Virus record (IMG/VR): IMGVR_UViG_3300021467_000022
Location: 1-24,654 of that record
Source: a virus
DNA length: 24,654 bases
Direction: 5' to 3' (one strand)
Part shown: positions 1 to 19,112 of the stretch, piece by piece
How the letters are laid out: each line of letters starts with the position of its first letter
How positions within the stretch are numbered: the first letter of the stretch is position 1
Notes under the pieces: model-generated
Told to the model about the DNA's origin: nothing
Databases searched by the model: none
What the model saw: only the letters and a program-made list of their open reading frames with translations
Program-made: the position numbers and the translations under genes

Positions 1-3000
1 TGTTAGTATTACTAACATATATATCTAAATTTTGTGGTGTATTACCAACATATTTAAGGTGAATTTCATCTATAGGTAATGATGATGGTAAAGCAAAACC
101 AACTCCATGATGAAATAGATTAGCATCTAGTCCTACATATGGTACAAAATACAAAGAATTATTAGCATGTATACTCGGTATTAATTCACTACCATATGAA
201 AAAAAATATATTTTAACATATGAAAACATTTCAACATTAAAAACACCATCATACATTAAAACTCCATTCATAAAAAATTTCAAATTATTACCTTGACGTT
301 TAAATCTAATCAATGTGTGTTTACCATCAGCACTACTAATATCACTATCATAAATTTTAGTTGTGCCATTATAAAGTTCCTGATATTTAGTATACTGATT
401 AACTGAATATTCATTGTATTGAAATATAACATTGTCCGAACTATCGTATAAACTAATTAAAATTCGTTGAGGATACCCATCCGAAATTTGATTATAATAA
501 AAAACAAATATCATTTCAAAATCAGATACAGAACCAAATTTATTACTAGTTAAAGTGGTACTAGCAGATCCATGATGGGTATCCGCTCTATATATTGCTG
601 ATGTATTCACACACCAATAATCAGGACGCGTTTCCCAAATAATAGAAATATATTTATTTTTTATTAAATCATATATAAAAAAACTAGAAAGATTAATTCC
701 ATCACATTCAACAAATCTTTCCTGCCTATTTAATGTTCCGTCGCTCTTACCATAAACACCAGAAATATCAACCCGTTCACCATTATAATAGCACTCAATA
801 TCATGAACTGCAAATCCAGCATCGCTATTTTTTAAAATTTTCCAATATCGTGCAGATACAGGATTAAATTTAATTACTGCTTCTTTCAAATAACAATATT
901 CATAATTATCAAAATTAATCGAAATTCCACTACTAACTGTGCCCCAACTATAAAAATCTTCGCCGTTATAACTATAGTATGCCTCCTTACCATCAATTAA
1001 ATTCTTTAATCCGTATGCTGGTACATTTATTGCGCATTGTCCATTAGCATTCCTAATCTCATAATCATCATACTTATACAATAAACTTTTAGGGCCTATT
1101 TGAGGCGTGTCTAAAGATTCTTGAGAATCTAACTTACTCCAAAACAAGACATCATTCGTATTAAAAATTTCTTTAGGTATATCAATTGACAAATCTAATG
1201 ATTTACCATAAACATTAGTAATAGTAAATGGAAAAGCCGAATTTACTTTATTACTTTGCGCCTCTTCTAAAAGAACGTTATCTGTACAATCATCCAATTT
1301 AACTTGGTCTCCAACAAAAGCGCTTACTTCATTCAAATAAAATTTACCGCTAGCAATCAATTCAAGCCTAAAATAACGTGGAGATCCACCAATAAAAGCA
1401 CTTATATGATTATCATCTATCCTCTCAAATTCGGCTGTGTTCCATATATCTCCATATGACGAAAAAGATAAAATTATATTGTCCAATAAAGAAGCACTCA
1501 TAAACATTCTACTATAAACTTCAATTTCAGTAAGTTTTGTACTATAATGTTTATGCGTATAAATTCTAAACCCTTTACACTCTATTGGATCAAAATTATG
1601 TTCTAAAACCAACCAATCTGTAACAGCAGCTGATTTAGCAATATCTGGATTTATCGGGTTATAAGCATCTGTTCCACGCCATTCTCTATAATATACCGTA
1701 TCATCCATTGGGTTATTATATAAATATTTAGCTGATGGGTAATCATCAGTATTGTATTGTGGAAGGCCATCAACTTTAATTAATGTATATTCCGGTATAC
1801 GATTATACCTCGGATCATACGTATTGCCTCCATACCCATTAAATCCCATATAATAAGACAATTCTAAATGCCTAAAATTATTCCGTTCTTTAAAATATAT
1901 AATACTTTTATGTATATCCAATACCATTTCGTCCGGAAAATTTAATGTAAATGCTATAGGATCTCTCTCAAAACTCAATGCATATCCATCTTGATCTGGC
2001 ACATTTGGCCAACAAAATTCATGCTTACCATCACATGTTGAGCTATATAACCATTCAGCATCACCATTAACATAAAAATAGGAATGTGGGCCATGCGTCG
2101 CAATACCATTATCAGTGTATATAGTACCCAACTGCCCATTATCTGCTGTAACAATTCCATCATCTAAACATTCAATGCCATATGCTATATTTTGATGAGT
2201 GGCCGACCACAGCTGCCCACTCCACCAATTAAATCCTGTGTGATAATGTGTCTCATTAAATAAATCTACATCCCAATTCACATCTAAACATAACGCCACA
2301 TTATATTCAAAATAATCAGAATCCTCTTTACCAAAAATATCTACTGTTTCAACGTTTACTAATTCTCCTAGATCAAAATCCAAAATCACATTATTTTGCC
2401 TTCTATTACTTCTGGCATAAATAGCAAAACCGCCCAATCCAAACGAATAAAACTGTGCGTCGTCTCTTGACGCTACACCTTCTATGTCACCAGTAAAAAT
2501 TAAAAATGTAGCATCGGGCAAATCAGATAAATTCTTACCTACATATAAATTAACATCATAAACCCCTATTAAATCTCCTTTTTCAACTAAAACATTACAA
2601 TCAATTCTATAAACATTAGGTCTAGTAGTATATAAATAATTATCTTCTATCTCTGGAAAATCCAAAGTATAAACAACTTCCAAATCACCATTAGCTTTAG
2701 GACGTAAAATTTTAATTTTAGAGCTTTCTGTGGCAATACCTGAAACATAAATAACATTAAGTATACCATTATTATTAATAGGATGAGACAAATCAACTAT
2801 AGTATTATGTTTACTTACAAAATCATGGTAATATGACTGAGTTTCTCCCTCAATTAATTGTGAAGGTGAAATCTGATTAAAATCTCTTCGCCCAGCCTCT
2901 ACATTAAATTGATCGCTGTTATGAACATATGCAAAATCATCATAATTACCGTCAATAAGCCTATTAATCTCTAAACTAGTCAACATTCTAGAAGATGCGT

Positions 3001-3946
3001 AATCAAAACCAGAAGCAGGTTTTTTACCACCAACTGCTTCATATGTACTAAAACCAAATGCTTCCGCTGCAGTGCCTGAAACACTAACTTTCGAATGATC
3101 TCCTTTAGACCCAGAATAAATAACTAATTTATTGTCTTCATTGTATTCACAAAATGCATAAGCATAAGAACCTATATTATAACTACTTATAGTATTTGAT
3201 AATAATTTTGCGGCCTCAATACCGGTTAAATTTTTATGTGTTCCTAGATTAAATTTAACATCTCCATAGTCATTTATATTTATTATTAATTCATCATTTA
3301 CACCGGAAATAGTAGTATAATTAGACTTTGCTTCTCCAGCAATTATATACCCTCTTCGGCCCGCGCCAGGACATGGGTGTTTATAACTATTATAATATGA
3401 ACACTGTGGATTTGAACAACGATAATTAGTACTAGAACTTATCTTAATAAAACTTATAGCAAATTTATCTCTATAATGACCATCTATAGCCGGATAAATT
3501 CGTAAATTATTAATCAAACCTCGCCATTTGGTTTTAGGCCCAGCATTTATTTCATAAAGATGCCATTTATCATCAGTAATAATATCAAATTCAATCTCTT
3601 TTGAGTCGTCCCACACATTGTCGTCAATTTTTGTCCATTGAATTTTCCCTTTTGTAGGTCTATGTTTTTCATCATAAACCGTATATTTCATCATTAATCT
3701 TATATAATAAAAATCTGACCCGTCTATAGGAATAAAAGGATTAGATCTACTTATATAGCTACCATTGTCTCTAATATTGCCTACAAGCGTACCTCGCCAA
3801 CTGCCGTATAAATATATATTATAAAATACATCCCAACCATCAACATCGCCATCAACTGTAAAATTAGTTGAATAGCCATCTAATGAATCGAATCGGCAAT
3901 AATCAGAATTTTGTACTGATCTAGCATCTTTAAAAATATTGTACAT
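1..3946 (-). CDS. Giant modular adhesin-like virion protein, 3' end outside window (at least 1315 aa)
   Basis: I checked this frame triplet by triplet: it is open from ATG at 3946 to the window edge, 1315 codons without a stop, so the C-terminus is missing. The start is set by GAGG five bases upstream and by the preceding gene's TAG one base before the ATG. Visible modules, approximate residues: an N-terminal jelly-roll-like region (1-150); a hook-like domain (215-305) ending in IYSGSKGDHSKVSVSG then FGFS; discoidin (F5/8 type C)-like stretches near 720-830, 880-915 (RYFRLELIASGKFYLNE) and 970-1055 (RYWKILKNSD, the latter after LKNLIDG); and a LamG/concanavalin-like domain near 1095-1235 (HTLIRFKRQGNNLKFFMNGV). 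There is no signal peptide. Such modules typically bind glycans or surfaces, so a tail-fibre or adhesin role is inferred. Fold assignments are by eye. Confidence 0.9.
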   Translation of the reverse strand, partial: MYNIFKDARSVQNSDYCRFDSLDGYSTNFTVDGDVDGWDVFYNIYLYGSWRGTLVGNIRDNGSYISRSNPFIPIDGSDFYYIRLMMKYTVYDEKHRPTKGKIQWTKIDDNVWDDSKEIEFDIITDDKWHLYEINAGPKTKWRGLINNLRIYPAIDGHYRDKFAISFIKISSSTNYRCSNPQCSYYNSYKHPCPGAGRRGYIIAGEAKSNYTTISGVNDELIININDYGDVKFNLGTHKNLTGIEAAKLLSNTISSYNIGSYAYAFCEYNEDNKLVIYSGSKGDHSKVSVSGTAAEAFGFSTYEAVGGKKPASGFDYASSRMLTSLEINRLIDGNYDDFAYVHNSDQFNVEAGRRDFNQISPSQLIEGETQSYYHDFVSKHNTIVDLSHPINNNGILNVIYVSGIATESSKIKILRPKANGDLEVVYTLDFPEIEDNYLYTTRPNVYRIDCNVLVEKGDLIGVYDVNLYVGKNLSDLPDATFLIFTGDIEGVASRDDAQFYSFGLGGFAIYARSNRRQNNVILDFDLGELVNVETVDIFGKEDSDYFEYNVALCLDVNWDVDLFNETHYHTGFNWWSGQLWSATHQNIAYGIECLDDGIVTADNGQLGTIYTDNGIATHGPHSYFYVNGDAEWLYSSTCDGKHEFCWPNVPDQDGYALSFERDPIAFTLNFPDEMVLDIHKSIIYFKERNNFRHLELSYYMGFNGYGGNTYDPRYNRIPEYTLIKVDGLPQYNTDDYPSAKYLYNNPMDDTVYYREWRGTDAYNPINPDIAKSAAVTDWLVLEHNFDPIECKGFRIYTHKHYSTKLTEIEVYSRMFMSASLLDNIILSFSSYGDIWNTAEFERIDDNHISAFIGGSPRYFRLELIASGKFYLNEVSAFVGDQVKLDDCTDNVLLEEAQSNKVNSAFPFTITNVYGKSLDLSIDIPKEIFNTNDVLFWSKLDSQESLDTPQIGPKSLLYKYDDYEIRNANGQCAINVPAYGLKNLIDGKEAYYSYNGEDFYSWGTVSSGISINFDNYEYCYLKEAVIKFNPVSARYWKILKNSDAGFAVHDIECYYNGERVDISGVYGKSDGTLNRQERFVECDGINLSSFFIYDLIKNKYISIIWETRPDYWCVNTSAIYRADTHHGSASTTLTSNKFGSVSDFEMIFVFYYNQISDGYPQRILISLYDSSDNVIFQYNEYSVNQYTKYQELYNGTTKIYDSDISSADGKHTLIRFKRQGNNLKFFMNGVLMYDGVFNVEMFSYVKIYFFSYGSELIPSIHANNSLYFVPYVGLDANLFHHGVGFALPSSLPIDEIHLKYVGNTPQNLDIYVSNTN

Positions 3947-3947
3947 A

Positions 3948-4340
3948 CTACCTCTTACGAATAGTACACTGTTTTATAATATCAACTAGACAATACCCGT
4001 CTCCCCCATAACCGCTGCATTGTCCGCAAAATTCTAGACCGTTGTCTGGATCGATTAATTGCGGGTTTATTTCTTCAGCAAACATCTTTTGTTTACGTAT
4101 CTCCATAGCCTGCATAGCTAGTTTTTCTCTGTATTTAGCTTCCCATTCTTTATATGTATACTTATATACTTTATTACATAATGTACATTCATAAATCAAA
4201 TACTGTTGTATAGAATTTTGTATTAATTTTCCACTATTCTCATCCAAATAATAATCCGCATCTTTCAAATATTCATCTATAGTCTTTCGTTCGTTTATTA
4301 CTAATTCGCCACCACATACATCACAATTTATAACAAACAT
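3948..4340 (-). CDS. Small two-cluster zinc-ribbon-like protein (130 aa)
   Basis: The ORF has a clear ribosome binding site, TAGGAG, which is fused to the stop of the upstream giant gene and lies six bases before ATG. Two four-cysteine clusters are visible: CxxC at 6/9 with CxxC at 52/55, and C105/C108 with C117/C125, each consistent with a structural zinc site. Between them is a charged helical stretch (residues 62-92, rich in K, E, R and M). The protein sits between two giant structural genes, one base before the next ATG. Its role is unknown; it could be an assembly factor, chaperone or small virion part. I recognise no family. Zinc binding is inferred from cysteine spacing only. Confidence 0.85.
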   Translation of the reverse strand: MFVINCDVCGGELVINERKTIDEYLKDADYYLDENSGKLIQNSIQQYLIYECTLCNKVYKYTYKEWEAKYREKLAMQAMEIRKQKMFAEEINPQLIDPDNGLEFCGQCSGYGGDGYCLVDIIKQCTIRKR

Positions 4341-4346
4341 GATAAA

Positions 4347-4352
4347 CTCCTA
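4347..4352 (-). promoter_or_regulatory. Stop codon fused to ribosome binding site (TAGGAG)
   Basis: The TAG of the 1758-aa gene begins TAGGAG, the binding site six bases before the 130-aa ATG. The following three sense codons (GAG TTT ATC) are in frame with that ATG, so amber read-through would fuse the two proteins. Confidence 0.75.
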
Positions 4353-7300
4353 ATATAAATTTCTAACTGCCTCTGGAAAATACAAAGAGATATTACCCTT
4401 CCAACTTTTCAATGAATATGACACCTTTTCAAATCTCTCAATAGTTGGCTCCATAAAATATTCAAATGGACGAATTAATACGTTAGCAGTACCCTTAAAA
4501 TATGCCACTATCGCAGTATTGGGTACCTGCTTATAATCATCACATGCCCTAACAAAAACTCTATCATAAATATCTTTCCATACACATGGGACTGGCATGC
4601 CATGTCCACATAAAATACACGGCACACTGCGTAATGTGCTAAAATCATATTGGAATTTATGACCACATGGACTATATCTATTATATGAAATAATTTCAGC
4701 CAGCGGTCTAACAAAAGTATTTTCAAAACTACATTCCCAAACTGGAAAAGAAATTCCTAATTCAGCCAATTGTTCACTTAAAGATGGCGGGGGATATGAC
4801 TTCATAGTAAAAGAAGTGCTTCCTTTATTAACTATATTATCATGTATTATTTTTTGTAAAGTTTCATAATAATGAGGATCTTTAGGTCCAGAAATAGCTT
4901 CTTTATCCTTATGACATTTCTCCATAATTCTGCCACGTAGTTTATTCATAGTAATGTGTTCACCATCAGATCCTGGCATTCCTACAACACCATAAATACT
5001 ATCCATTTGATAAACAGTTGAAGAATCGCTAGGTAATTTATATAATAATGATCCAGTTGATTCATAACCATGCGGCGGAAAATCTCCATGTCCTCCTATA
5101 GAAGCCATGTATTTACGTTCATACGTAGTTATATCTTCAATAGCATCGACGAACTCTATATAATAAAGATATAAACTATCAATAAATACATGATTGGTAA
5201 CATACAACGAATCATAATATTTAGATAACTCTCCGGCATCTTCTAATTCGCTAGTAGTTGGCTTTAATCTAAATACTAACTTTATATATTTACTACCAGC
5301 TAACCTTTTATGTATATCCAAAGACAATTCATAAAAAACATTAATCGTATTCGTACTATCCGATCTGTTATACAATATCATTTTATCGTTTTCATAAACT
5401 AATTCGTAAGCCTTATCGTCATTAGAAATATAAATTTTAATTCCTGGTATATGATATAAATCACCAGAAAATATCGGAGATTCATTAGATAAATGGTTAA
5501 ACAACTCTTCATAAAATCTCTCAAAAGCACCTATTTTAAAACTAATAGAAACACCACCTATACTAATCCCATCCGCATTAAATAATGTTATGGCTGTATC
5601 CTCTAATTCACAATTATAATCAAGCTTAACTGTACGAGATGCCGGATAAAAGTAATCAGTAGACTCTATGCCGCTCCATTCATTACTATCAAAACTTGGT
5701 TTATCCGATAGCCTAATTTGATATAAATCTGAATCTAACAATTTCAATTCATATGGAATATACTCAAAATTATCTTTTTTTAATTGGACATCAAGCCCTC
5801 GATGATAATAATGTCTTACTTCCTCTCCTGCTTCATCATATGTTATAATAGTTCTATCATCAGGTTCATCAATACTAACGTACCCTGTATCAAACAATGA
5901 AACTTCAAATACCCACGGATCTTTTGTACATGTTTTATATAAAGATTTAGTCGCGTCACACCCTTCTACACCACTTGATGTAGTTTGATCTAACCACTCT
6001 CCATCAGCATTAAAACACCTAATTGGCCCATCATTCAATTGTAATTTCCACACATCATCCTCACTATAAGTCAAATCATCACTAATACTGGGCGCATAAA
6101 GTTTAATTGCGTGGTCCCCTTCATCACACACTAATCTATGTTCTTTTATCATAAAATCGTATTTATATGGTGGATACATAATATCTAAAAATAAATGTCG
6201 GCCACGTACTTCACCATTAGATTTTTTATATGGCACACTTAGTATATTGTTGATCACTCTATTTGTAGTATTTATATAGTGCCCATTAATCTCATTAAAG
6301 GCATTTTTCCAATTAGCGCTAAATTCGATTTTAAACCTAACTAAATCTTTCCATTTTTCTCTCCATACCCACTGAATAGATTTAGACATGTCGCCTAGTG
6401 GGTTATCTTTATATGTATACCAAGATATAACTGGAATTAAATTGGTCCCTACTAAATATAATTCTTTAGGATAAGGATAATAAATACCTCCTATCCAATG
6501 CGGCCTAAATAAATCATCAAATCTAAATCTAATGACTCCATCCTCATCAACTATTAATTCTTCATTTATATCTACATTCTCTATAGTTAAAGCCTGTAAT
6601 AAACCAAATTGATCGATATATAGACTTTTGTCATTATAAAAATCATTGCTAATATAAGAGAAATATGGATATTCAGTTATAGCTGAGTCAAGATCCATAA
6701 TAGAATAAAACTCAGATGTTGGAACCCATTTTGATTTACGTACATAATCAGAACCAGTCCACACATAATAATCAATATTATCTATAGAACGAAAACTACG
6801 CAAAAAATCTCTATAAACATTGCCAAATTTAGGTAATAATCCTCCAAACTGTATAGCCTTTAATTTATCAGCATAAGATAACCCACCACGATATCTGGCA
6901 TAACCACTAAATATATTCTTTCCTCTTTTTTCTAAATTACAGTAAGACCAATCCTCATGACACGTCCATATTGTAGAATGAATGCCACATATATCTCCAA
7001 AATTATCGGCAGGACCAAGCATTCGCATATCATGCTTACCGTGTTTTTGCTCAGATGGATAATCTTCATTAAACACTTCCATAATGCCAGTATCAAAAAC
7101 AATATTATTAACAATGTTATATCTAGCGTAGTCATCACAACTATCATATGGATACCACATTGGACCAGTTTCCGTAAATAAAGATAAATCATGATCACCG
7201 CATGGTGGAGTATAAGACTTACTCACTAAATAATCATACACTTCAACCCCTATTGGTCCATACTTAACAAACTCTGGTAATAACTTATATTTAAAATAAT

Positions 7301-9626
7301 TAGCTCGCCAATTATAAAATATTTCAACATCTCTACAATACGGCTGTCTAATCCATGTTATAAGTTTAGTTTTAAACTGTCCCCTAATACGGCCAGTGCA
7401 CCCTCTAAAAACAACAGATGGTACAATAGGCATATCAGAAAATTGTTTAATAGAATAGCTCTTCCCATTATTTATTACTATAGAATTTCCATACTCAATA
7501 ACATCATCATCGTTTATAAAATCTTCCCTAATCTCTTCATAATTATCATCATCAATAATTTCACTAGCGGTATGTCGTTCATAGATATAGATATTGTCTA
7601 TTTTAAGAATAGCGTCATTACAAACTTGTGAAAATTCTTTAATGTTTTTTGGTTTTATGATACATTGATTAAGTTCTAATTTATCATTACATTTATCAAC
7701 AACTACCATTTCAATACAGTCTTTTTCACCATAACATAATTTAATACCCTCGATTTCCCATGGTTTTATAACATCAGTAAGTAATTTATCATTATCAGGT
7801 ATAATAACAAGAGCGTACCCGGCATTTCCAAAAAATTTAACATTGCTAATATCTAACTCTAAGTTTGAAAACACCTTTCTTTTATATAATTTATAGTTAA
7901 GCTTCCATAATTTATATGGCAGTGGATGACTAAGAGACGGACTTAACCTCTCTTTAACCCCATCCAAATAGATATATGCAATATCATTTTCTGGCTTAGT
8001 TTTGTACGACGTAAAATAAAAAAATTGAAAATTAATTTCACCATTTTTATTAACATCTGCTACAAAATTATCTTCGTATGACGGTAAATAATTTACCTCT
8101 CCTTCACCATTTATAGTAAATTTAGTCTGGCCTACAACGCCGCCCACATAAATCTTCGTAAAACTGATTTTATCAAAATCCCATTCCCCATTCCCATTAT
8201 TGATAACTACAATAACATTCTCTCCAAAAAATGATGGTACATCTATATAAAACATGTTGTGATCAGAACCACTGTTTGATTTTATCATATGTTCTGGGCT
8301 GCTATTAATTAAAAATTCTATATATTTTTTATAATCGCTATACACATCATCAAACGTCTCAATTAAACCAGCTCTAGCAGCCTCCAAATTATCATACAGT
8401 AATAAAAAATCCTTTATATGAGAAGGAATACTCAAATCTGGATCATTTAAATTAAATGCATAGGTGTCAGAACCATAATAAAACTGATCTCCAAAGATGG
8501 TTATATATTTATGATCTAAATTTGAAGTTTCAAACACATTTTTATTATCTAACTGGTCAAAAACATTCCTAATTATGGGGCTCAGCGCTGTATCTTTCAA
8601 TTCTCTAACTAAAGTAGGGAAATCCGGCCAAACACCGTCCGCTGACATACCAGCAGACAATGGAATAGCGTGGCTATCTAAATTAAAATAATCGAAATCT
8701 ACAAAATAAACACGATGGCTTGGAACAATATTATAAGCATCTAACAAATAGCCATCCCATGCATAAATATCTCCTTCATAAAATGATTCATAGTATTTAT
8801 CAAAATCCCACCTATCTTTACGCAAATAGTAACGGAGTTCTAATATTTGCTCGGCTGATACATAATCGCCATGACGCATATATTCATCTATACAATACTC
8901 CCAACAAACACCCGTATAATACGGACATTCTGGCTTAGCACCATTACAGGGCGGTACATACATGTTCAAATCTGGATCATAATAAAAATCCATAAATTTG
9001 TCAGTTATTCCATCTGAATTACAACATAAGTACTGAGGCTTCTGCACAACGCCAGTATCGTCAACAGTAAATTCAGTAGCATTGCCCGCCCACCAATAGC
9101 ATCTAGAAAGTTTAGCCCTCAAATTATATATTTTAAAATTTAACGGTAGTCTGAAAATTAACCCTGATGTAGTAGTTATATCATCTACATCATATCCTAA
9201 AGATGCTATAGCATCGTCTGGCTCTAAAGCTGAAAAGGCCATATTGAAAGGCATATAACCTGTACACTTTAAACAACTACCATAACCATCACAATTACCC
9301 TCATTATAACAGCTAATTGGATTATAATTTCCTTGCTTTATAAGGTTTCTTTCAGAATCCAATATAGGCAAATTAACCCATTTAACATTATCCCGACTAG
9401 GAGTCGTTCTAAAAGGATCAGGCCTTACACACATATATACTGGCTTCTCAATATCGCCATCATATTTCCCACACTTAGTTTGAGTCCCTATTAAATTGCA
9501 AAATGGAAAAAAATCTGCTTCTGAATCGGTACAACATACTTTATCAGTACTCCACTTGCTACACCGCGGCGGCTCTTTTACCCAATATTGACATAAATAA
9601 ATACCAGAGGCACTAGTTGGCGGCAT
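4350..9626 (-). CDS. Giant cysteine-rich phage structural protein (1758 aa)
   Basis: A single 5.3-kb ORF starts at MPPTSASG. Its ATG lies inside the end of the upstream 104-aa gene (14-base overlap), with GGAGG twelve bases ahead. About forty cysteines are present, eighteen of them in the first 250 residues, many as CC, CxxC or Cx5C groups (residues 106-121 contain four). A further Cys/His-rich patch lies near 855-900 (HGKHDMRM, CGIH, WTCHEDWSYC) and another near 1645-1680 (SPCGHKF, CILCGHGMPVPC). The rest looks beta-rich and aromatic, with many Tyr, Trp and Asp. No signal peptide, membrane segment or catalytic motif is evident. Size and position favour a large tail or baseplate-associated protein. 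Whether the cysteines bind metal or form disulfides cannot be told. I do not recognise a named family. Confidence 0.9.
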   Translation of the reverse strand: MPPTSASGIYLCQYWVKEPPRCSKWSTDKVCCTDSEADFFPFCNLIGTQTKCGKYDGDIEKPVYMCVRPDPFRTTPSRDNVKWVNLPILDSERNLIKQGNYNPISCYNEGNCDGYGSCLKCTGYMPFNMAFSALEPDDAIASLGYDVDDITTTSGLIFRLPLNFKIYNLRAKLSRCYWWAGNATEFTVDDTGVVQKPQYLCCNSDGITDKFMDFYYDPDLNMYVPPCNGAKPECPYYTGVCWEYCIDEYMRHGDYVSAEQILELRYYLRKDRWDFDKYYESFYEGDIYAWDGYLLDAYNIVPSHRVYFVDFDYFNLDSHAIPLSAGMSADGVWPDFPTLVRELKDTALSPIIRNVFDQLDNKNVFETSNLDHKYITIFGDQFYYGSDTYAFNLNDPDLSIPSHIKDFLLLYDNLEAARAGLIETFDDVYSDYKKYIEFLINSSPEHMIKSNSGSDHNMFYIDVPSFFGENVIVVINNGNGEWDFDKISFTKIYVGGVVGQTKFTINGEGEVNYLPSYEDNFVADVNKNGEINFQFFYFTSYKTKPENDIAYIYLDGVKERLSPSLSHPLPYKLWKLNYKLYKRKVFSNLELDISNVKFFGNAGYALVIIPDNDKLLTDVIKPWEIEGIKLCYGEKDCIEMVVVDKCNDKLELNQCIIKPKNIKEFSQVCNDAILKIDNIYIYERHTASEIIDDDNYEEIREDFINDDDVIEYGNSIVINNGKSYSIKQFSDMPIVPSVVFRGCTGRIRGQFKTKLITWIRQPYCRDVEIFYNWRANYFKYKLLPEFVKYGPIGVEVYDYLVSKSYTPPCGDHDLSLFTETGPMWYPYDSCDDYARYNIVNNIVFDTGIMEVFNEDYPSEQKHGKHDMRMLGPADNFGDICGIHSTIWTCHEDWSYCNLEKRGKNIFSGYARYRGGLSYADKLKAIQFGGLLPKFGNVYRDFLRSFRSIDNIDYYVWTGSDYVRKSKWVPTSEFYSIMDLDSAITEYPYFSYISNDFYNDKSLYIDQFGLLQALTIENVDINEELIVDEDGVIRFRFDDLFRPHWIGGIYYPYPKELYLVGTNLIPVISWYTYKDNPLGDMSKSIQWVWREKWKDLVRFKIEFSANWKNAFNEINGHYINTTNRVINNILSVPYKKSNGEVRGRHLFLDIMYPPYKYDFMIKEHRLVCDEGDHAIKLYAPSISDDLTYSEDDVWKLQLNDGPIRCFNADGEWLDQTTSSGVEGCDATKSLYKTCTKDPWVFEVSLFDTGYVSIDEPDDRTIITYDEAGEEVRHYYHRGLDVQLKKDNFEYIPYELKLLDSDLYQIRLSDKPSFDSNEWSGIESTDYFYPASRTVKLDYNCELEDTAITLFNADGISIGGVSISFKIGAFERFYEELFNHLSNESPIFSGDLYHIPGIKIYISNDDKAYELVYENDKMILYNRSDSTNTINVFYELSLDIHKRLAGSKYIKLVFRLKPTTSELEDAGELSKYYDSLYVTNHVFIDSLYLYYIEFVDAIEDITTYERKYMASIGGHGDFPPHGYESTGSLLYKLPSDSSTVYQMDSIYGVVGMPGSDGEHITMNKLRGRIMEKCHKDKEAISGPKDPHYYETLQKIIHDNIVNKGSTSFTMKSYPPPSLSEQLAELGISFPVWECSFENTFVRPLAEIISYNRYSPCGHKFQYDFSTLRSVPCILCGHGMPVPCVWKDIYDRVFVRACDDYKQVPNTAIVAYFKGTANVLIRPFEYFMEPTIERFEKVSYSLKSWKGNISLYFPEAVRNLY

Positions 9627-9927
9627 TGGTATCTATAACCTCCATATAAAAACGGCCAGTAGTTTCATCTACATGATAACAAACTTTACTACGGCCCTCA
9701 TAAAACCCAATAGTTCTTCTTTCCAATCTAAAACTTTCTTGAATACCAGGAATCATAGAGGCCCTATATTTGACAAAATAAGCTTCTTTATTTGTTAAAT
9801 GCCAAGATCTCCCATCAAAAAATAAGGACAGACGAATTATGGCTTTTTTTGGAACTTCCCGCCATTCCATCTGTCCTTCTCTTATAATAGTCCCATCTTT
9901 GAGTTCAACTTCCCAATAACGTTGCAT
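9613..9927 (-). CDS. Small conserved-looking beta-rich protein (104 aa)
   Basis: The longest ORF begins at 9939 (MEVC), but I chose the internal ATG at 9927 (MQRYWEVELKDG): GGAGG at 9933-9937 lies five bases before it and itself overlaps the upstream ATG, which has no binding site of its own. The product is short and soluble, with alternating charged and hydrophobic strands (YWEVELKDGTIIREGQ, RLSLFFDGRSWHL, SFRLERRTIGFYEG), suggesting a small beta-barrel or sandwich. It has no cysteine clusters or catalytic motif. Its 3' end overlaps the start of the giant Cys-rich gene by 14 bases, so the two are probably co-translated. Function is not recognised; an accessory virion or assembly role is only suggested by position. 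Confidence 0.85.
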   Translation of the reverse strand: MQRYWEVELKDGTIIREGQMEWREVPKKAIIRLSLFFDGRSWHLTNKEAYFVKYRASMIPGIQESFRLERRTIGFYEGRSKVCYHVDETTGRFYMEVIDTNAAN

Positions 9928-9932
9928 ACAAA

Positions 9933-9937
9933 CCTCC
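9933..9937 (-). promoter_or_regulatory. Ribosome binding site deciding the 104-aa start
   Basis: GGAGG on the minus strand lies five bases before the ATG at 9927. It overlaps the first in-frame ATG (9939), so that ATG cannot be served by it. This favours the shorter protein. Confidence 0.75.
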
Positions 9938-9993
9938 ATTGCCTAAAACATAAATATATAACCACACTCTAGTTACTGCCCATCCCATCCTAA

Positions 9994-11082
9994 CTAAATA
10001 CAAACAACCCAGATATTTGCCTTACTAAAAGAACATACTCGATTTATCTTATCCATCACTTCTGCTAATTTATCAGATGTTATATTTCTACTCTTAACTT
10101 CTATATATACATCACAATCCTCCAAATAAAAATCAGGTGTATATGAACGTCTATTCCCATTCTCATCTATGTAAGGAAATCTACAAACCTCATAAAACCA
10201 TTTATATTTATTTTTTGTTAAAAAATCCGCATATTTAGCTTCTGTTTTAGATCTTAACAACAATTTACCTTGATATGGAGAATTATATTCCACAACAGTA
10301 CCATACTGATTTTGTCTATTGTAATTTAAAGCTGCTTGCTCAGATATAATACATCTCCTAACTTTTTCATTCCGTAATCTAGTTTGATCTTCACCAAATA
10401 AACGAACAAACCACCTACTCAAACTGTGCCTATCCATATTTAATTCTTTACTTATCTCATCAAGACTAAAATCACTATAAAAATAAATTTTTAATAGATT
10501 ATACATATAATCAAAATGTTCTTTACAAGTTTTAATTTTTAATGCCATATGTTGATATAATTTATTTAATTTAGTACCACAAACAGGACATACAAACTCC
10601 GCTTTAGTTGTGTCTCTCCTAGATTCTAAATAGCATTTAGAACATAACCCATGACCAGCGTGTGGGTACTTAGTAGTACCGCACTTTATACATTTAGCAA
10701 AAGATAATGACCAATTTCCACTCTTCCTCTCACGTCTACCTCTTCGTCTATTAATTGCTTTGACATGACACCTAATACATCTCCCGTTAGCAGCATATGG
10801 CCTATCAGTTGTACCGCAATCTATACACTTCTCATATTTTCTAGACCACTTAATTAATTTAGCCTTACGCTTCTTATATAATTCTTTCTTATAACATCGA
10901 ATACATAGCCCTTTAGCATTATGTTTATATTTAGTAGTACCACACTTAATACATTTATCATAATAACGTGACCATTTCCCGTTAGCAGTATTACTAGCCA
11001 AACCACGTCGATTATGACCATGTATATAAGTATTATTACCCTTTACTATCTTACCACAGCCACATTTACAGTATTTACGCAT
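9994..11082 (-). CDS. Free-standing homing-type endonuclease: zinc fingers, HTH, PD-(D/E)XK nuclease (362 aa)
   Basis: The N-terminus has CKCGCG and HGHN (5-24), then three near-identical zinc modules at residues 44-63, 86-105 and 131-150, each CIxCGTT followed by H/Y-rich residues and CxxC, each preceded by a WS pair. A further CPVC (165-168) with H178, C186 and H189 follows, then a helix-turn-helix (about 205-230). The C-terminal domain carries the PD-(D/E)XK signature: E281 in SKTEAKYA, D317 in YTPDF, and E328-V-K330 in YIEVKS. This arrangement resembles TnsA/Vsr-like nucleases and PD-(D/E)XK homing enzymes such as the I-Ssp6803I class; the exact family is uncertain. The gene lies between structural genes, overlaps the 533-aa stop by eight bases (ATGCGTAA) and lacks a Shine-Dalgarno, unlike its neighbours. 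It probably cuts gene-junction DNA lacking the insert and spreads by repair. Confidence 0.88.
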   Translation of the reverse strand: MRKYCKCGCGKIVKGNNTYIHGHNRRGLASNTANGKWSRYYDKCIKCGTTKYKHNAKGLCIRCYKKELYKKRKAKLIKWSRKYEKCIDCGTTDRPYAANGRCIRCHVKAINRRRGRRERKSGNWSLSFAKCIKCGTTKYPHAGHGLCSKCYLESRRDTTKAEFVCPVCGTKLNKLYQHMALKIKTCKEHFDYMYNLLKIYFYSDFSLDEISKELNMDRHSLSRWFVRLFGEDQTRLRNEKVRRCIISEQAALNYNRQNQYGTVVEYNSPYQGKLLLRSKTEAKYADFLTKNKYKWFYEVCRFPYIDENGNRRSYTPDFYLEDCDVYIEVKSRNITSDKLAEVMDKINRVCSFSKANIWVVCI

Positions 11083-12676
11083 AATCGAAGAACAAACGAT
11101 ACAATATAGATGAATTAGCTCCAGTTTCAGCTACACCAAGCCTGATATTAAGCCATATAGGATCACTTGTTAATCCGCATAAATTATACTGTCCAATAGA
11201 TTCACTATCATCTGCAGTTCCAACAACACTAAGATTGGCTTTGGTGGCATATAAATAATTAGGTGGAATATCATTGTCTATATCTGCTGGCTGAATATTA
11301 GGGTACCATTCAATTCCATTAGTTGGAGCAGAACCTGCGGTATTATCTGGGCCAACAGTTCCAAACCTAAAATATGTATCATTATTGCCACTTTCGTGAT
11401 GGCTAAAAGTACCGTGACTATTCAAACCAAATTTAACTGTACTCATTTGAACAGCGCCAGATTCAATCTCAAACATGACCGTTTTAACAGCACTTTCAGT
11501 AGAAACTGTAACATTTCCATAATTAAGTTGTGTGATATTATAATTAGCCGGACTTGGACCAGAACAGATAACATAAAAACAATCGCCAGCACCAAGCTCA
11601 TCTGAACCACCGGTCGGATTAAATTTGATTTGTAGGCCTCTAGATCCTAACTGAGTCCATCCTCCAGATACAGTTGTAACTGGAGAAGAACTATCATCCC
11701 CACGATCAGAGCTATAAACATATTGTGCAGTACCTACTGGCGCACTGGCATTAGTTCCCGCTGCATAGTCTGGTTTATAGCATTGTATAGTCCAAGCAGG
11801 GTTACATGTATTAAATACAGCATCACTAAATTTAACCCTTAACCCATATTTACCTATACTATACCAATAATCAGGGTATAACAATTCAACCCAATCAGTT
11901 TGACTATCTACATTAGGAGAACTACTCCATCTCATTCTAGGCACATTTCCAGTGCCTGCTCCCATAGTAGTGCCATTAGTAGTATCTATTTCTATTGTGT
12001 ATTGTATATCAGACGTGTAATTAAAAACACCGCCTGTAGTCAAAGTTCCAGCATATGTATTACTACCACCCTTTGTAGGCGTACCTATTCCTCTAGTAGC
12101 ATCATTATCATTGGTAATAACTATCTTATATACTTCATCAAATAATCCATAATATGTACCAGAAATAGAAACATCACCGGAAAAAGTATATGCTGCTTTT
12201 CCATCAGGAGTAGCAGAGCCACCTTGTTCATACTTAGTTTGAAATCCTAAAACTTGGTGCGCAGAATTAGTACCGCTAACTACAGAGACACTAGAACTGG
12301 AACCAAGGCTCCCAGAATAAATGACAAATCTATTACGTTTAGATATACTACCACTAATCACCACATTTTCCCATCTACAGATGGCATGATCCCAACGAGC
12401 ATCAAACTTTCCTAAATTATGTAATTTTTCAGTAATATCTCTGGCTACAAATCTTGGGTCCAAATTAGTTCCAGAATACAAAGTAATATACGGGCCAGAA
12501 TCTCCATCTATACTCAAATGAAGCCTATTCGTAGTAGGACCAATTGTAATAGTATCACCAGGATCTGATGTTCCAACACAATACCCCCGTGTTCCTTTAC
12601 AACCAGCATTTCTACCATCATCCGCCTCACCTACTGCTGATGGAGAATATTCCACCCATCTAGTAACAGCTACCAT
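11075..12676 (-). CDS. Beta-rich virion structural protein with hook-like domain (533 aa)
   Basis: Start is firm: TAGGAGG at 12684-12690 lies seven bases before ATG. The protein is rich in Gly, Ser, Thr and Asn, as in secreted or virion fibre proteins. Residues 50-150 form a domain also seen in the 315-aa protein and in the giant protein at the window start: a beta hairpin, a helix (VARDITEKLHNLG), a strand FVIYSGSLGSSSSVSVVSG, and a closing LGF. This resembles hook/flagellin insertion-type folds by eye, but no family is confirmed. Residues 160-400 contain repeated strand-rich segments (YKIVITNDND, GLRVKFSDAVFN, GLQIKFNPTGGSDELGAGDCFYV), and 400-533 look like a jelly-roll terminal domain. A tail-fibre or decoration role is inferred. 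Confidence 0.9.
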   Translation of the reverse strand: MVAVTRWVEYSPSAVGEADDGRNAGCKGTRGYCVGTSDPGDTITIGPTTNRLHLSIDGDSGPYITLYSGTNLDPRFVARDITEKLHNLGKFDARWDHAICRWENVVISGSISKRNRFVIYSGSLGSSSSVSVVSGTNSAHQVLGFQTKYEQGGSATPDGKAAYTFSGDVSISGTYYGLFDEVYKIVITNDNDATRGIGTPTKGGSNTYAGTLTTGGVFNYTSDIQYTIEIDTTNGTTMGAGTGNVPRMRWSSSPNVDSQTDWVELLYPDYWYSIGKYGLRVKFSDAVFNTCNPAWTIQCYKPDYAAGTNASAPVGTAQYVYSSDRGDDSSSPVTTVSGGWTQLGSRGLQIKFNPTGGSDELGAGDCFYVICSGPSPANYNITQLNYGNVTVSTESAVKTVMFEIESGAVQMSTVKFGLNSHGTFSHHESGNNDTYFRFGTVGPDNTAGSAPTNGIEWYPNIQPADIDNDIPPNYLYATKANLSVVGTADDSESIGQYNLCGLTSDPIWLNIRLGVAETGANSSILYRLFFDYA

Positions 12677-13345: not shown

Positions 13346-15931
13346 TTATTTTAAGCGGTATATTATTGGTATTATTTGAACTTTTCTATCTCTTCCGCCT
13401 ATCTTAACTAAAATGCTATCCTTATCTATACCGGTCCCGTCAACCGCATAAACATTAGCAGAAACCTCAGAAATTTTCCTAGGCACTCCTTTACTACAAG
13501 GATCAGGTACAAAACTTTCTTCATCTATCCAAGGCCCTGAACTACTAATACAGTAAAAACGCCACCCATCAAATAATGTATTCTTATTAATTGATTTGTC
13601 TTGTACAATAAGTGATACTTCTACTGTCTCACCATAGGAAAATTTACTGTTATTAGTATAAGATATATGATAGCCACCAGAAATAGTAGTAGCTATATAA
13701 TTAACACCAACATTATTAACATACAATTCTAACGTATCAATATTAACTCCAACTCCAGCATCCATTATATCAAATGAAACATCAGAATCAATTGGAACAT
13801 CATACTCTTCTCTAGCAGGCAATTCGTTTATAACATACGGACTTTTATAATCCGGAATTATCTTAAACCAATAATCTGTTAATATTATATTAGGAAGCGG
13901 GGCTGTGTCATAAACTTCAATAGAAACATATACAATTGCGTTGTGATGAAAATCGGTTGAAGGATCATACAAAATATCTAAACCTAGTAACCCACCACCA
14001 GCATCAAATGTTGATATTGCACATGAAGAAGTTACATCTATATAATCCGTATCACCTGTGTATGATAATTCACGTACTTTAAATTTAAGTGTTGATTGAT
14101 TCAAACTAAATGCAAAAGGCCTAAGTCTAATATAAATATTAGTATTAACTGGATTTTTCTCCGACCAAAAAGCAGGTACCGCATCTTCAATAAATCTAAA
14201 TTGATCTATTTGGGCCGTATCTTTATGCCCAGATGATTTATGCCTACTAACATATAACTGACTTAATTGAAAATCGTTAGTTTTAGATGCTAATTGCTGA
14301 ATATACATATCTAAATCAACTTCTGGCTGTAACTGCTGTATATAATCAAAACTATCGAAATCTTCTAATTGCTTAATTAATGTAGTCGTATCAGCAGGCG
14401 CCGACGTCCCTCCCCAGTGGCCACCTGGAAATTGGAATCTACTTAAGCATTTCAAGTAAATAGCAGTATCCAATCCTAATAACTGTCGAATATGCGTATT
14501 TAATTCATACTCATCTCGTTTTTGTATTAACTCTTGTAATTCAATTGTAAATCTCTTTAATAATAACAAGTCTAATGAAGACCAAACATATTGACTACCT
14601 GTAAATGAAGATGCTCCATCGGTTTTAGCTTTAATAGTTATAAAAATAGAATCATCATCAGATCCTTCTGGATTAAAATAATTAACATCATATGTTATAG
14701 ATGCTTCACCATCTGCATTAGTTGTAACTTGTCCAGCAGATGAAAACAACCCTACATCTGGTGAATCATAAAAATACACTGTTTTATTATTTAGTCCAAC
14801 GCCAAATTGATCTCGTACTACAACTTTTATAATAACTTGCTGATCATTTAAAACTATACCGTCTGGATCAGCGCTAACTGCTATACTATACGTATAAGGA
14901 GAAATTGAATCCTTTTGATAATTATATGTTGACCAAGACGTGGTAGATTTATTACCATCATCATCAACTAAAGTAATCTTACGCTGTAGACAATAAATCA
15001 CATTATTATCAAAAGCTATATCATAAACTGGAATAATTGTCATTTCATCAGATTCTATGTTATGCAGACATTGCGCTTTAGAAAATTGGCCTTTTTGTAA
15101 ATTATAATATAATAATACCGAACCATTTACAAATCCTACTGATTGATAGTCACGACTCCATGAAGCAGCCCTAACATTGTTAAAAACAGCATTTTGAACT
15201 CCACTCATAACTGTTCCAGTGTTTATATTAACTCGATAATAAGAACCATAATTAGAATTACCATTAAATCCATCATCGCTAAACAAATAAACATCTTTCC
15301 AATAGGTTACAGAATCACCAGCAGTATATTCATATTTCGGAGGAGTAATACCGCTTGCGGTTATATATACCCAACCACCAGATATACTGGTCACTTCAAC
15401 ATATTCAAAAGAATACAAATTATCCGTATCTCCGCTTGGCCCTAATAATAATACATCTCCAGCCTCAATTCCACTATATGTTGTAAGCTTAATTCTTCCT
15501 GTACCAGTAGTAGTAGCCTGATCAAATTCAGTTTCATAATGCTCTACAGCCATAGTATATGAATTGAATCGATATTGACCTGTATTAGATAAATCTATAG
15601 TATCATCTAACACTAACGAACTAAAAGTATTATTTAATTTCCAACGCCTTATTCTAACAGTAGAGTCCGAAACGTGTTCTAATGTAAAAAATGGTAACTC
15701 GTCTCCTAATTGATTAAAAGACAATGACAAATTTCTAGGGCCTACATATTCTAATGCATAAACTTCATTAATGGCTGTATCCAAACTATAGGTTTTTTGC
15801 AAAGTACCAGAATCATTCTTTACTTGTAAAATTCCATTAGTACCCTGCGTATGATCAATACTACAAAACTCCCCGGTTCTAGGGGCTATACAAAAATTCT
15901 GCTGCTGAAACTCCACATTCTCGTACGCCAT
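13346..15931 (-). CDS. Propeller/Ig-like structural paralog with long C-terminal extension (861 aa)
   Basis: This is the third of three tandem paralogs (432, 620 and 861 aa), beginning MAYENVEF. The N-terminal 340 residues carry repeated strand groups (ALEYVGPRNLSLSF, IRRWKLNN, YTMAVEHYETEF, IIPVYDIAFDNNVIYCLQRK) aligned with the paralogs and compatible with a beta-propeller. Residues about 350-440 form a Big_1 invasin-type Ig domain (VVRDQFGVGLNNKTVYF, DVGLF, then DGEASITYD). A helical segment rich in Leu and Gln (about 450-565) is unique to this copy, followed by Ig domains near 580-700 and 695-790; the latter (SPYVINELPAREEYDVPIDS) resembles residues 90-137 of the 171-aa protein. The final 70 residues contain DGTGIDKDSILVKIGG, another Ig-type strand. 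TAGGTGAG serves as stop of the previous gene and binding site here. Likely a surface fibre component. Confidence 0.9.
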   Translation of the reverse strand: MAYENVEFQQQNFCIAPRTGEFCSIDHTQGTNGILQVKNDSGTLQKTYSLDTAINEVYALEYVGPRNLSLSFNQLGDELPFFTLEHVSDSTVRIRRWKLNNTFSSLVLDDTIDLSNTGQYRFNSYTMAVEHYETEFDQATTTGTGRIKLTTYSGIEAGDVLLLGPSGDTDNLYSFEYVEVTSISGGWVYITASGITPPKYEYTAGDSVTYWKDVYLFSDDGFNGNSNYGSYYRVNINTGTVMSGVQNAVFNNVRAASWSRDYQSVGFVNGSVLLYYNLQKGQFSKAQCLHNIESDEMTIIPVYDIAFDNNVIYCLQRKITLVDDDGNKSTTSWSTYNYQKDSISPYTYSIAVSADPDGIVLNDQQVIIKVVVRDQFGVGLNNKTVYFYDSPDVGLFSSAGQVTTNADGEASITYDVNYFNPEGSDDDSIFITIKAKTDGASSFTGSQYVWSSLDLLLLKRFTIELQELIQKRDEYELNTHIRQLLGLDTAIYLKCLSRFQFPGGHWGGTSAPADTTTLIKQLEDFDSFDYIQQLQPEVDLDMYIQQLASKTNDFQLSQLYVSRHKSSGHKDTAQIDQFRFIEDAVPAFWSEKNPVNTNIYIRLRPFAFSLNQSTLKFKVRELSYTGDTDYIDVTSSCAISTFDAGGGLLGLDILYDPSTDFHHNAIVYVSIEVYDTAPLPNIILTDYWFKIIPDYKSPYVINELPAREEYDVPIDSDVSFDIMDAGVGVNIDTLELYVNNVGVNYIATTISGGYHISYTNNSKFSYGETVEVSLIVQDKSINKNTLFDGWRFYCISSSGPWIDEESFVPDPCSKGVPRKISEVSANVYAVDGTGIDKDSILVKIGGRDRKVQIIPIIYRLK

Positions 15932-15934
15932 ATA

Positions 15935-15942
15935 CTCACCTA
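15935..15942 (-). promoter_or_regulatory. Stop codon fused to ribosome binding site (TAGGTGAG)
   Basis: The TAG stop of the 620-aa gene runs directly into AGGTGAG just ahead of the 861-aa ATG at 15931, so both signals share bases. This is the same stop/start economy as at 12684, 4347 and 21948. Confidence 0.65.
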
Positions 15943-17802
15943 ATCAAATTGAGTCGCTGTACCTTCTATAGTAACAGTCCGTATAGCTATACCAGCTTTA
16001 TAATATGTAACGGCCTCTCCTGTGCCAAAAAAATAATCAGTATAGGCTATAGGTATTGTTATAAAACCTACATCATCATCGTCAGTAACAAATACGGGTT
16101 TGTTTACAATCCCGTCGCCATATTGATCGTTTACTATAATACTAATTTTTGCTGTATTAACAGCATTAGCTGGTAAAATAACTGGATATGCAGATACGTT
16201 TATAGTATCAACAAAACGTCTACTAGTAGATAGTACATAGTTATAATCTGACCAGCTATAGTCATGATCATAATAATTAGCTTCTTTTTGTAATCTAAAA
16301 ATGTTAGTATCGTCCACCGCTAAATCATAAATTGTAATAATATCATTATTAGTTTTTGTATTATCTATGGTAGCAGTGGCCAATAAATTCATACTACCAA
16401 TATCCAAAAACTTCAAATTAGTGTCCTTATTATACATTAATAACCACTGCGGTTTAGAGCTAACTCCTTTGATTTTATTAAATGTACATGCCTTAATATT
16501 GTCAAAATCTCCATAGTAAATTTTATCATACATAGTCTCCACTTTATGAATAATAACACAATCTATACCCCAATTATAGCTAGCAGATTGATACTGACGT
16601 CCTTTTATATCATAACTACCAGAAACAGATATATTAAAAATACCAGTTTGGGTTACCCAGCTGTTATCTCCAATATTATGAGCCTTAATATCTATTATAC
16701 CTCCCACACCATCCAATCTAAGCCCTATTTCTTCATCAACGTCATTATCATATGCATCAAATATTACATAATAAGTCCCGACATCAAAATCAACATTAGA
16801 TGCAATAGTATATTCCCAATTGCCAGCTTTATTTGTATGATCTCCAGCCCAATAACCTTTCTCAGTGCTCGATTTATATAGAGACTGTGTCTCTAAAGTT
16901 ATGTTATCTACTCCCCATGAATAAGTACTATCTTCTAATTGCCTACCTTTAATGGTATATGCACCAGAAACTGGTATATATAATAAATTAACTTGAGAAA
17001 CCCAACTATTATTACCTTCTCGCCTCGCTATAACGTCAAAAGTATCACTCGTAGATTCTATACGTAATGCTATTTCATGATCATCATCTGCATCATAAGC
17101 AGAAAATTTTACAGTATAAACCCCTTCATCTAATTCAACACCAGATGCGATAGTATATTCCCACAAACCTGTTTTAGCATTATGATCTCCATCCCAATGA
17201 TAAGAGACCTCTACAGGACTTTCAATTGGATACTTAACTAAATAATCATCTAGTACAATCAAAATATTAACGGCAACGTAAAATTTGTCTCCCTTGTTAT
17301 GTGGATATATTACGCTGTTTTGCAATTGTATAGTGCTGCCACTAATTGAGCTAATATAATTACTCTCTAATAAATCATCTTCACCTAAATAAATTTTAAG
17401 CCCACTACTTAAAATAGGCTCGAAATTATCATCAATTGTAATAAAAGTTTCTCCTCCGCTAATTGTAGTAGATAACGTACTAGTATAATATTCTATAGAA
17501 AACGCCGTACTTGTAAATCCAGGAAATTTATAGCTTTTATCTAATTTACATAAAAAGTTATCAATATACCACCGTTTAATCAATAAATTACTGCCATCCT
17601 GTTCTAACGTCCAAAAAAATAAAGAATCATATTCTAAACTCTCAATAGTATTATCAATTACAGTATCTAATAAATATGTAAAAACAGTATCACCATCGGC
17701 TAATTTTTGATATAACGCATCAGCGCTATCATCAAAAAAATAAAAATAACCTCCATAATATGTCATATTAGGTTTTGAAAATCTTATATTTTCATACGCC
17801 AT
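15940..17802 (-). CDS. Propeller/Ig-like structural paralog with duplicated inserted domain (620 aa)
   Basis: The second tandem paralog starts MAYENIRFSKPN. Residues 15-180 match the 432-aa protein (YGGYFYFFDDSADALYQKLA, LEYDSLFFWTLE, IKRWYIDNFLCKL, FSIEYY). Where that protein has a single loop strand (LYKLDAYTGDYITRY), this one carries two tandem copies of a domain of about 100 residues: copy A 205-305 and copy B 318-419. Both contain WEYTIAS, an acidic D-rich turn (DADDDHEI / DNDVDEEI), NSWV, and YxIKGRQ ending in WGxD. These look like carbohydrate-binding-module-type sandwiches, by eye only. The shared frame resumes at about 425 (KIYYGDFDNIKACTF), and residues 532-616 form the Big_1 Ig domain (IVNDQYGDGIVNKPVFVTDD). 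Its ribosome binding site is weak (GTGGTG). Confidence 0.9.
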   Translation of the reverse strand: MAYENIRFSKPNMTYYGGYFYFFDDSADALYQKLADGDTVFTYLLDTVIDNTIESLEYDSLFFWTLEQDGSNLLIKRWYIDNFLCKLDKSYKFPGFTSTAFSIEYYTSTLSTTISGGETFITIDDNFEPILSSGLKIYLGEDDLLESNYISSISGSTIQLQNSVIYPHNKGDKFYVAVNILIVLDDYLVKYPIESPVEVSYHWDGDHNAKTGLWEYTIASGVELDEGVYTVKFSAYDADDDHEIALRIESTSDTFDVIARREGNNSWVSQVNLLYIPVSGAYTIKGRQLEDSTYSWGVDNITLETQSLYKSSTEKGYWAGDHTNKAGNWEYTIASNVDFDVGTYYVIFDAYDNDVDEEIGLRLDGVGGIIDIKAHNIGDNSWVTQTGIFNISVSGSYDIKGRQYQSASYNWGIDCVIIHKVETMYDKIYYGDFDNIKACTFNKIKGVSSKPQWLLMYNKDTNLKFLDIGSMNLLATATIDNTKTNNDIITIYDLAVDDTNIFRLQKEANYYDHDYSWSDYNYVLSTSRRFVDTINVSAYPVILPANAVNTAKISIIVNDQYGDGIVNKPVFVTDDDDVGFITIPIAYTDYFFGTGEAVTYYKAGIAIRTVTIEGTATQFD

Positions 17803-17813
17803 GTTTACACCAC

Positions 17814-19112
17814 TTATGTCTGTTCAACTCTAGCAGTTATCTTTACTTCACGCGCTGAATCTCCAGAAGTATATACAGTTTCTGCCTTACCTTCACTATC
17901 AGTAACTTTCGGCGTACCGCCAGTAATACTACCAACAGGATCATCTTCAGAAAAATATACAAGCCTACCAGAAACAGGCTGCAAGAACTGGTCTTTAACT
18001 ATAGCTACTATAGTAGAAGTGGCTATAGTATTTGCAGCCAAGACTGCGGGGTATGCCGCTAATGATATAGATGTAACAAATGAATCCAAAGATGATAATA
18101 TATAACTGTATGCACTCCACGTAGTAGATGTGCCATCAGGTATATCTTGAAGTCTATACACATTTTTACTATCCATAGCTAAATCATAAATTGGTATAAC
18201 TGTTCTTTCGTCAGATTGTATATTTTCCATGACCATGGAACCATAATATGGTAATAAGACACCAGATTCCCTCACATTAACAAATAATATATTAGTACTT
18301 TTAACATAACACAAAGTATCTACATCACCATACTGTGTAAAAGACGGTACATTATAAAAGGTGGCCGCAGTTATATTTTTATACGCGCCTCCACCGTACC
18401 TAGTTATATAATCCCCAGTATAGGCGTCCAATTTATACAACGCTCCTCTAGAACTATCAGTCCCATCATAATTATTAAAAACCCACAAATAAGTATAAAA
18501 ATTTATTTTATCTCCATCTGCATAAGTAAACTGTAATGGCTGTTCTAAATCAACTCTATAATCCACAACCCCACTTACCACTGCCCCACTAACTGTTAGT
18601 ACTCCACTCACTGTAACATCTTCTTCTTCACCATTAGAGTTAGGTCCTAAATGCAATCTGAGGCCGTCCCCACTAGTTGTAGTAAAACCCATCAGAATAT
18701 TATCGTCTGAATACTTGGACATATATAAATAAGTACTACCACTACTCGCGGGGTACTTAAATGTTGTATGATAGTGCTCAATAGAAAATGCATTAGAATC
18801 GTACGTATGACTAGCATCATTAGTATATATGAAAGTCTGTTGTAATTTACATAAATAATTATCCAATTTCCATCTTTTAATTCTAATCTCACCAGATGGG
18901 TTTTCTAAAGACCAAAAATACACCCCATCAAATTCGGCGCTTTTAACAGGCTGATCCATAAGCACATCAAAGGGATATGAAAAAGCTGTATTCCCATCAT
19001 CAGTTTTTTGTAATAAATTATCCTGCGCATAATCAAAAGTGAAAAAGTAACCTTTATACACAGTAAAATTAGATTGAGTTGATTTATTTAATTTTATGTT
19101 TTCATTCGCCAT
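17814..19112 (-). CDS. Propeller/Ig-like structural protein, shortest paralog (432 aa)
   Basis: The first and simplest of three tandem paralogs starts MANENIKLNK after AAAGGAG. Residues 18-340 hold repeated strand units (GYFFTFDYAQDNLLQKTDDG, AEFDGVYFWSLE, IRIKRWKLDNYLCKL, AFSIEHYHTTF, LWVFNNYDGTDSSRGALYKL, VIPIYDLAMDSKNVYRLQ) that read like blades of a beta-propeller. Residues about 349-432 are a Big_1 (invasin/intimin-type) Ig domain: ATSTIVAIVKDQFLQPVSG, VYFSEDDPVGSI, then DSEGKAETVYTSGDSAREV. No insertions are present, so this copy probably shows the ancestral layout. It lies 14 bases downstream of the 171-aa gene. A virion surface or fibre role is inferred; there is no enzyme motif. Confidence 0.9.
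   Translation of the reverse strand: MANENIKLNKSTQSNFTVYKGYFFTFDYAQDNLLQKTDDGNTAFSYPFDVLMDQPVKSAEFDGVYFWSLENPSGEIRIKRWKLDNYLCKLQQTFIYTNDASHTYDSNAFSIEHYHTTFKYPASSGSTYLYMSKYSDDNILMGFTTTSGDGLRLHLGPNSNGEEEDVTVSGVLTVSGAVVSGVVDYRVDLEQPLQFTYADGDKINFYTYLWVFNNYDGTDSSRGALYKLDAYTGDYITRYGGGAYKNITAATFYNVPSFTQYGDVDTLCYVKSTNILFVNVRESGVLLPYYGSMVMENIQSDERTVIPIYDLAMDSKNVYRLQDIPDGTSTTWSAYSYILSSLDSFVTSISLAAYPAVLAANTIATSTIVAIVKDQFLQPVSGRLVYFSEDDPVGSITGGTPKVTDSEGKAETVYTSGDSAREVKITARVEQT

Follow-up and report, generated by a model that had tools for sequence, protein, structure and literature searches.

What role could a giant protein so rich in cysteine play among the structural genes of a phage? Since phage virions are assembled under the reducing conditions of the cytoplasm, a conserved tail protein with so many paired cysteines would be unusual. 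The window, that is, the whole stretch of DNA analysed here, is a linear IMG/VR virus record of 24.7 kb (IMGVR_UViG_3300021467_000022, 24,654 nucleotides). A preliminary description made from its sequence had reported a cysteine-rich giant of 1758 residues within a phage structural module, with about forty cysteines, 18 of them within 250 residues. The open reading frame does lie at the positions given, to which the strand, minus, can now be added (Table 1), and its translation contains 42 cysteines, 18 of which fall in residues 1-245. By comparison, the window's remaining structural ORFs hold 57 cysteines in 5230 residues (1.09%), a rate at which 19 would be expected in a protein of this length (P = 4e-6 for 42 or more), and a cluster of 18 cysteines in 245 residues was matched by 0.03% of random placements. 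Some 30 homologues, the most distant about 20% identical, keep the frame intact, which excludes a chance ORF.

Table 1. Features of the cysteine-rich giant, its neighbours in the window and tape measure genes of relatives.
Feature	Position	Strand	Evidence or remarks
Cysteine-rich giant (P0001), 1758 aa, 42 Cys	4350..9626	-	ORF list and translation (ATG at 9626, stop 4350-4352); about 30 full-length homologues
N-terminal cysteine domain, residues 1-250	8877..9626	-	Alignments; motifs CQYW, PCNGxKPECPxYTG
Middle part, residues 300-760, beta-rich, Ig-like by fold comparison	7347..8729	-	AlphaFold2 prediction
Second conserved cysteine region, residues 764-896	6939..7337	-	C764, C809-G-D-H812, C830, C889; pairs 880/896, 788/891
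C-terminal half, residues 900-1758, predicted beta-sandwich domains	4353..6929	-	Model
Predicted beta-hairpin shut by covarying C1654-C1695	4542..4667	-	Pair history and model strands
108-aa neighbour, directly upstream, overlapping the start of the giant gene	9613..9939	-	25/27 loci
130-aa protein, three CxxC and two single Cys, zinc-ribbon-like	3948..4340	-	24/27 loci
Next giant, start portion only (1315 aa up to the window end)	2..3946	-	26/27 loci
533-aa protein, best conserved neighbour	11075..12676	-	27/27 loci
Zinc-finger ORF resembling homing endonucleases, located between the 108-aa and 533-aa genes	9994..11082	-	Relatives in 12/27 loci
861-aa upstream structural protein, Big_1-like Ig domain	13346..15931	-	23/27 loci
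Tape measure ORF, 8048 aa	G021:C1:32474-56620
Tape measure ORF, 7756 aa	G030:C1:64290-87560
Tape measure ORF, 7715 aa	G046:C1:119994-143141	-
Tape measure ORF, 7531 aa	G016:C1:28607-51202
Tape measure ORF, 6909 aa	G001:C1:21942-42671		Assembly gap near 3' end

The first relative found was 70% identical over its full length and lies on a 67-kb contig with the gene order of the window. The capsid protein of this contig matches the major head protein family phrog_2522 (5e-14), and at least 171 viral-contig stretches encode relatives of it. When a two-row profile of the cysteine-rich protein was compared with 46 of the capsid-relative records, the protein was present in the five longest (119-234 kb), as products of 1761-1865 aa each. 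A wider profile then recruited about 30 full-length members of 1.7-1.9k residues, sharing 20-70% identity, all on IMG/VR contigs and every one of these metagenomic. Conservation and covariation were analysed in an alignment of 26 members and in a second version with 30. Two sequences are truncated, probably by frameshifts or assembly errors: L151, near-identical to the divergent member L152, has a frame that stops after 762 codons, and L149 is shortened at its C-terminal end.

The preliminary description had recognised no family for the giant, and the deeper homology search that it called for brought in metagenomic homologues and no named family. Scans of the 26 members against Pfam and PHROGs gave no convincing family (none matches the F5/8 type C model PF00754 at E ≤ 0.05), no solved structure in the PDB was matched by the single sequence or the 26-member profile, and tblastn with three members as queries found no homologue in 50,697 phage records; a tblastn search of 72,556 plasmid records was likewise negative. 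A lone phmmer match to glutamate-cysteine ligase (2e-4) is judged to be due to chance, since the family profile does not recover it. By sequence, then, the giant is an undescribed family, and because the family has neither a Pfam nor a PHROG model, annotation pipelines that use those libraries would leave its members unnamed. The cellular genomes scanned with the cysteine-rich protein gave no match. A scan of cellular genomes with the capsid protein returned three MAG contigs, labelled Fermentibacteria, WOR-3 and Geobacteraceae; as these are different phyla, which suggests binning noise, no host is claimed.

We also examined the genes around the giant. In 27 of 27 homologous loci checked, it belongs to one conserved late gene cluster that runs from Ig-domain proteins through the 533-aa protein, often a homing endonuclease, the 108-aa protein, the cysteine-rich giant and the 130-aa protein to a second giant, with individual neighbours kept in 23 to 27 loci. 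The assignment to a phage structural module is therefore borne out, and the giant, at a conserved structural locus and outside known families, is indeed a promising candidate for a virion component not described so far; its location in the virion we infer from gene order alone. Alternatively, the gene might be a non-structural late gene that sits in the module by chance, or its product might be secreted or displayed on the host surface, and secreted proteins too can have adhesin-like folds. However, we regard this as improbable given a single copy in every long relative examined, a fixed position among structural genes in all 27 loci and overlapping gene starts.

Several neighbours carry recognizable features. 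The Ig domain of the 861-aa protein was matched by PF02369 at 3e-6, which is under the curated cut-off. Homologues of the downstream giant are mostly 2100-3100 aa long; PF00754 was found in two of those scanned (4e-16 and 9e-9), and LamG lectin domains occur likewise in some. A weak hit linked the 533-aa protein with a 'tail sheath' protein of a Thermus phage (14% of the query, E 0.01) and was set aside. Homing-endonuclease-like ORFs lie between structural genes both in the window (9994-11082 and 19624-20559) and in a relative (L004:4327-6661 and 14931-19800); the one at 9994-11082 has many zinc-finger-like cysteines and is outside the core cluster.

Long relatives place the giant downstream of the tape measure gene among the structural genes, as seen in the maps of G016, G046, G030, G021 and G001. 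The upstream tape measure ORFs are 6909-8048 codons long with 0-2 cysteines, and PhageMin_Tail (2e-20) is the model matched by the tape measure of the 67-kb relative. Within the G001 tape measure (L005 from 1942, residues 289-416) lies an exonuclease domain of RNase_T/DnaQ type (PF00929, 6e-13), which had no counterpart in the part of the G016 protein inspected, its first 3797 residues. No match to the tail sheath model PF04984 was found in 11 relatives, in a search whose control was positive in 7 of 14 genomes and which a very divergent sheath could escape; the tail is therefore probably non-contractile. With a scaling of about 0.15-0.175 nm per residue, estimated from lambda-type scaling and P74-26, these tape measures would correspond to tails of roughly 1.0-1.4 μm. 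The clade apparently consists of large, siphovirus-like jumbo phages with extremely long tails, largely uncultured. Moraphages were rejected as a description of this clade because contractile tail proteins were reported for them and no tape measure gene was identified (PMC12619734). Other genes of the 234-kb relative (G046) specify NAPRTase, NAD synthase, an intein-bearing DNA polymerase A and an actin of the Volactin family (PF25216, 6e-64).

Giant tape measures are already known in phages, and those described here are longer. Thermus phage P23-45, a relative of the phage described with the longest known tail, has a tape measure of 5002 residues, and the tail of P74-26 is nearly 1 μm long (PMC10770324, PMC10034513). 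The present phages resemble these in long tails and a giant tape measure, which in one relative here contains an enzyme domain, but differ in a tape measure of 6909-8048 aa versus 5002 aa, and tblastn found no homologue of the cysteine-rich giant in the phage collection. Bacillus phage G (Donellivirus) has a distantly related major capsid protein (26% identity over 61%) and, by tblastn, no homologue of the giant either.

The cysteines proved to be conserved across homologues that share 20-70% identity: 18 cysteine columns are at least 90% conserved in the 26-member alignment. Thirteen of these lie in the N-terminal domain (residues 12, 22, 32, 43, 52, 66, 112, 121, 176, 201, 227, 234 and 245, each in 24-26 of 26 members) and the others at 764, 809, 830, 889 and 1670, while C241 is kept in 19 of 26. 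In the divergent member L152 most of the first cysteine module is gone, and two cysteines remain there. The preliminary description had further cited CC, CxxC and Cys/His patches as evidence, an argument that finds no support, since these motifs are mostly not conserved. The CC doublets at 31/32 and 201/202 and the CxxC at 118-121 occur in the window sequence alone or in a few other members, C31, C118 and C202 lacking conservation, and were for that reason rejected as metal or redox sites. No His-rich patch is conserved, and H812 is the sole histidine invariant among the 26 members.

The variable cysteines give an indication of what the residues may do. Eight pairs of variable cysteine columns have identical histories of gain and loss on the tree, namely 788/891, 1654/1695, 1204/1223, 1312/1338, 1332/1484 and 363/579, an insertion pair near 293, and an insertion paired with 150. 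Thus 16 of 41 variable cysteine columns (39%) have a partner, compared to 0-10% for every other residue type. Under a null matched for number of changes and frequency, the mean was 1.6 pairs, and eight were reached in 0.1% of trials (P = 0.001). With 30 members aligned and the cut-off relaxed, the enrichment is still there but weaker (per column pair, 0.0063 versus at most 0.0021). At positions 788/891 the alternative to C-C is K-E, present as K788-E891 in the window and its two nearest relatives; positions 1654/1695, 880/896 and 241/669 are always C-C or neither. In the AlphaFold2 models, 1654 and 1695 stand opposite each other in a predicted antiparallel hairpin (strands 1655-1672 and 1679-1693), as do 880 and 896 (strands 875-882 and 893-906).

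The preliminary description had offered zinc or iron sites and disulfides as alternatives. Gain and loss in pairs is the reason for preferring disulfides, and the adjoining 130-aa protein, perhaps a cytosolic assembly factor, provides a contrast with its metal-like pattern: all eight of its cysteines are invariant in 19 of 19 sequences, with CxxC-type spacing. Taken together, these observations favour disulfides for most of the giant's cysteines, and the metal half of the proposal narrows to one candidate site. The structural check suggested at the outset was informative for the two hairpins, where the cysteines are predicted to face each other, and not for residues 1-155, which are poorly modelled.

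That one candidate is the set C809, H812 (C-x2-H), C830 and C889, which is invariant in 26 of 26 members, is kept where C764 is lost, and does not fit simple cysteine pairing; it could form one metal site. A metalloprotein throughout, in which the conserved cysteines ligate zinc or iron-sulfur centres and thereby keep the fold stable under the reducing conditions of the cytoplasm, would accommodate these four residues as a CHCC site, and would also fit the clear Cys8 zinc-ribbon-like character of the adjoining gene and hosts that may be anaerobes. We nevertheless consider it unlikely, as the N-terminal domain has no conserved ligand quartet of CxxC-type spacing, histidine partner or CxxC, the variable cysteines change by twos and not by fours, and lost C-C pairs show K-E, E-D or L-F rather than sets of other metal ligands. 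A mixed arrangement, with a single structural metal site at 809/812/830/889 made in the cytoplasm and disulfides formed elsewhere later, accounts both for cysteines that covary in pairs and for the invariant C/H/C/C set. It is a possibility that we hold only tentatively, as the site comprises four positions, and C809, C830, C889 and C764 could instead make two disulfides in most members.

Disulfides in the giant would require oxidation, and no homologues of thioredoxin, glutaredoxin or DsbA were found in 17 relatives; a search for Evr1/Alr was silent in the relatives, its controls being silent as well. Without a phage thioredoxin, glutaredoxin or DsbA, oxidation would be carried out by the host or occur after release. 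Anoxic sediments seem to be the source of many of the relatives, and in such a setting oxidation following release would not be guaranteed.

Finally, we compared predicted folds of the giant with known structures. A first AlphaFold2 model (residues 1-960) had a mean pLDDT of 71.5, with values mostly of 84-95 in 340-760 save for local dips and good values in 160-250; residues 1-155, with half of the conserved cysteines, were of low confidence. Its fold comparison returned multi-Ig extracellular proteins, no match being significant, and Ig-like beta-sandwich domains are predicted to follow the N-terminal domain. The second model (residues 640-1758) had a mean pLDDT of 78.8 and, by Foldseek, matched CBM32 and discoidin folds with a probability of 1.00 and a TM-score by target of up to 0.66; a discoidin/CBM32-like (F5/8 type C) jelly roll is thus predicted somewhere within this part. 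In this it resembles phage F5/8 type C proteins but differs in having no Pfam match, and the jelly roll is just one part of an 1800-residue giant. The fold matches include the multidomain glycosidases 7nit and 7nsn, through their accessory domains, and might suggest a tail-associated enzyme, such as a depolymerase or peptidoglycan hydrolase, of a family too divergent for detection. We give this little credence, as no Pfam or PHROG enzyme domain occurs in any of the 26 members and the confident matches are to the CBM/discoidin module.

The closest functional parallel appears to lie in the tail-tip and receptor-binding proteins known from siphophages, among them minor tail proteins, tip attachment protein J and the Dit/Tal/RBP module. 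The giant is like them in its position downstream of the tape measure, its large size, its tandem beta-sandwich domains (predicted here) and its lectin-type neighbours. However, it has no sequence homology to a known tip or receptor-binding family in Pfam, PHROGs, the PDB profile search or phage tblastn, its predicted-fold matches to protein J and minor tail proteins are of low probability, and its cysteines are dense, conserved and covarying. The best-supported reading is that it works like these proteins while lying, by sequence, outside every described family.

With moderate confidence, we therefore propose that the giant is a disulfide-stapled scaffold or adhesin of the tail tip, a core external tail part of a clade of siphovirus-like long-tailed phages. 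Like the rest of the virion proteins, it would be synthesised in the cytoplasm, and it would be assembled beside the lectin-type giant whose gene lies downstream. The N-terminal 250 or so residues, with their 13-14 conserved cysteines, would form one domain; Ig-like beta-sandwich domains would come next, and the C-terminal half would include a discoidin/CBM32-like fold that may bind glycans. Most of the cysteines would pair as disulfides, upon release or already within the host should its cytoplasm be oxidising, and these staples would hold the loops and hairpins of a part that stands outside the cell and bears the load of attachment. More speculatively, and with considerable doubt on our part, the family may represent a new class of conserved multi-disulfide tail-tip proteins that pass from a reduced, assembly-competent state to an oxidised state locked after release, matched to record-long tails. 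The family thus raises a testable question, whether a phage tail tip is locked by oxidation on release, and marks a wide, apparently undescribed clade of phages.
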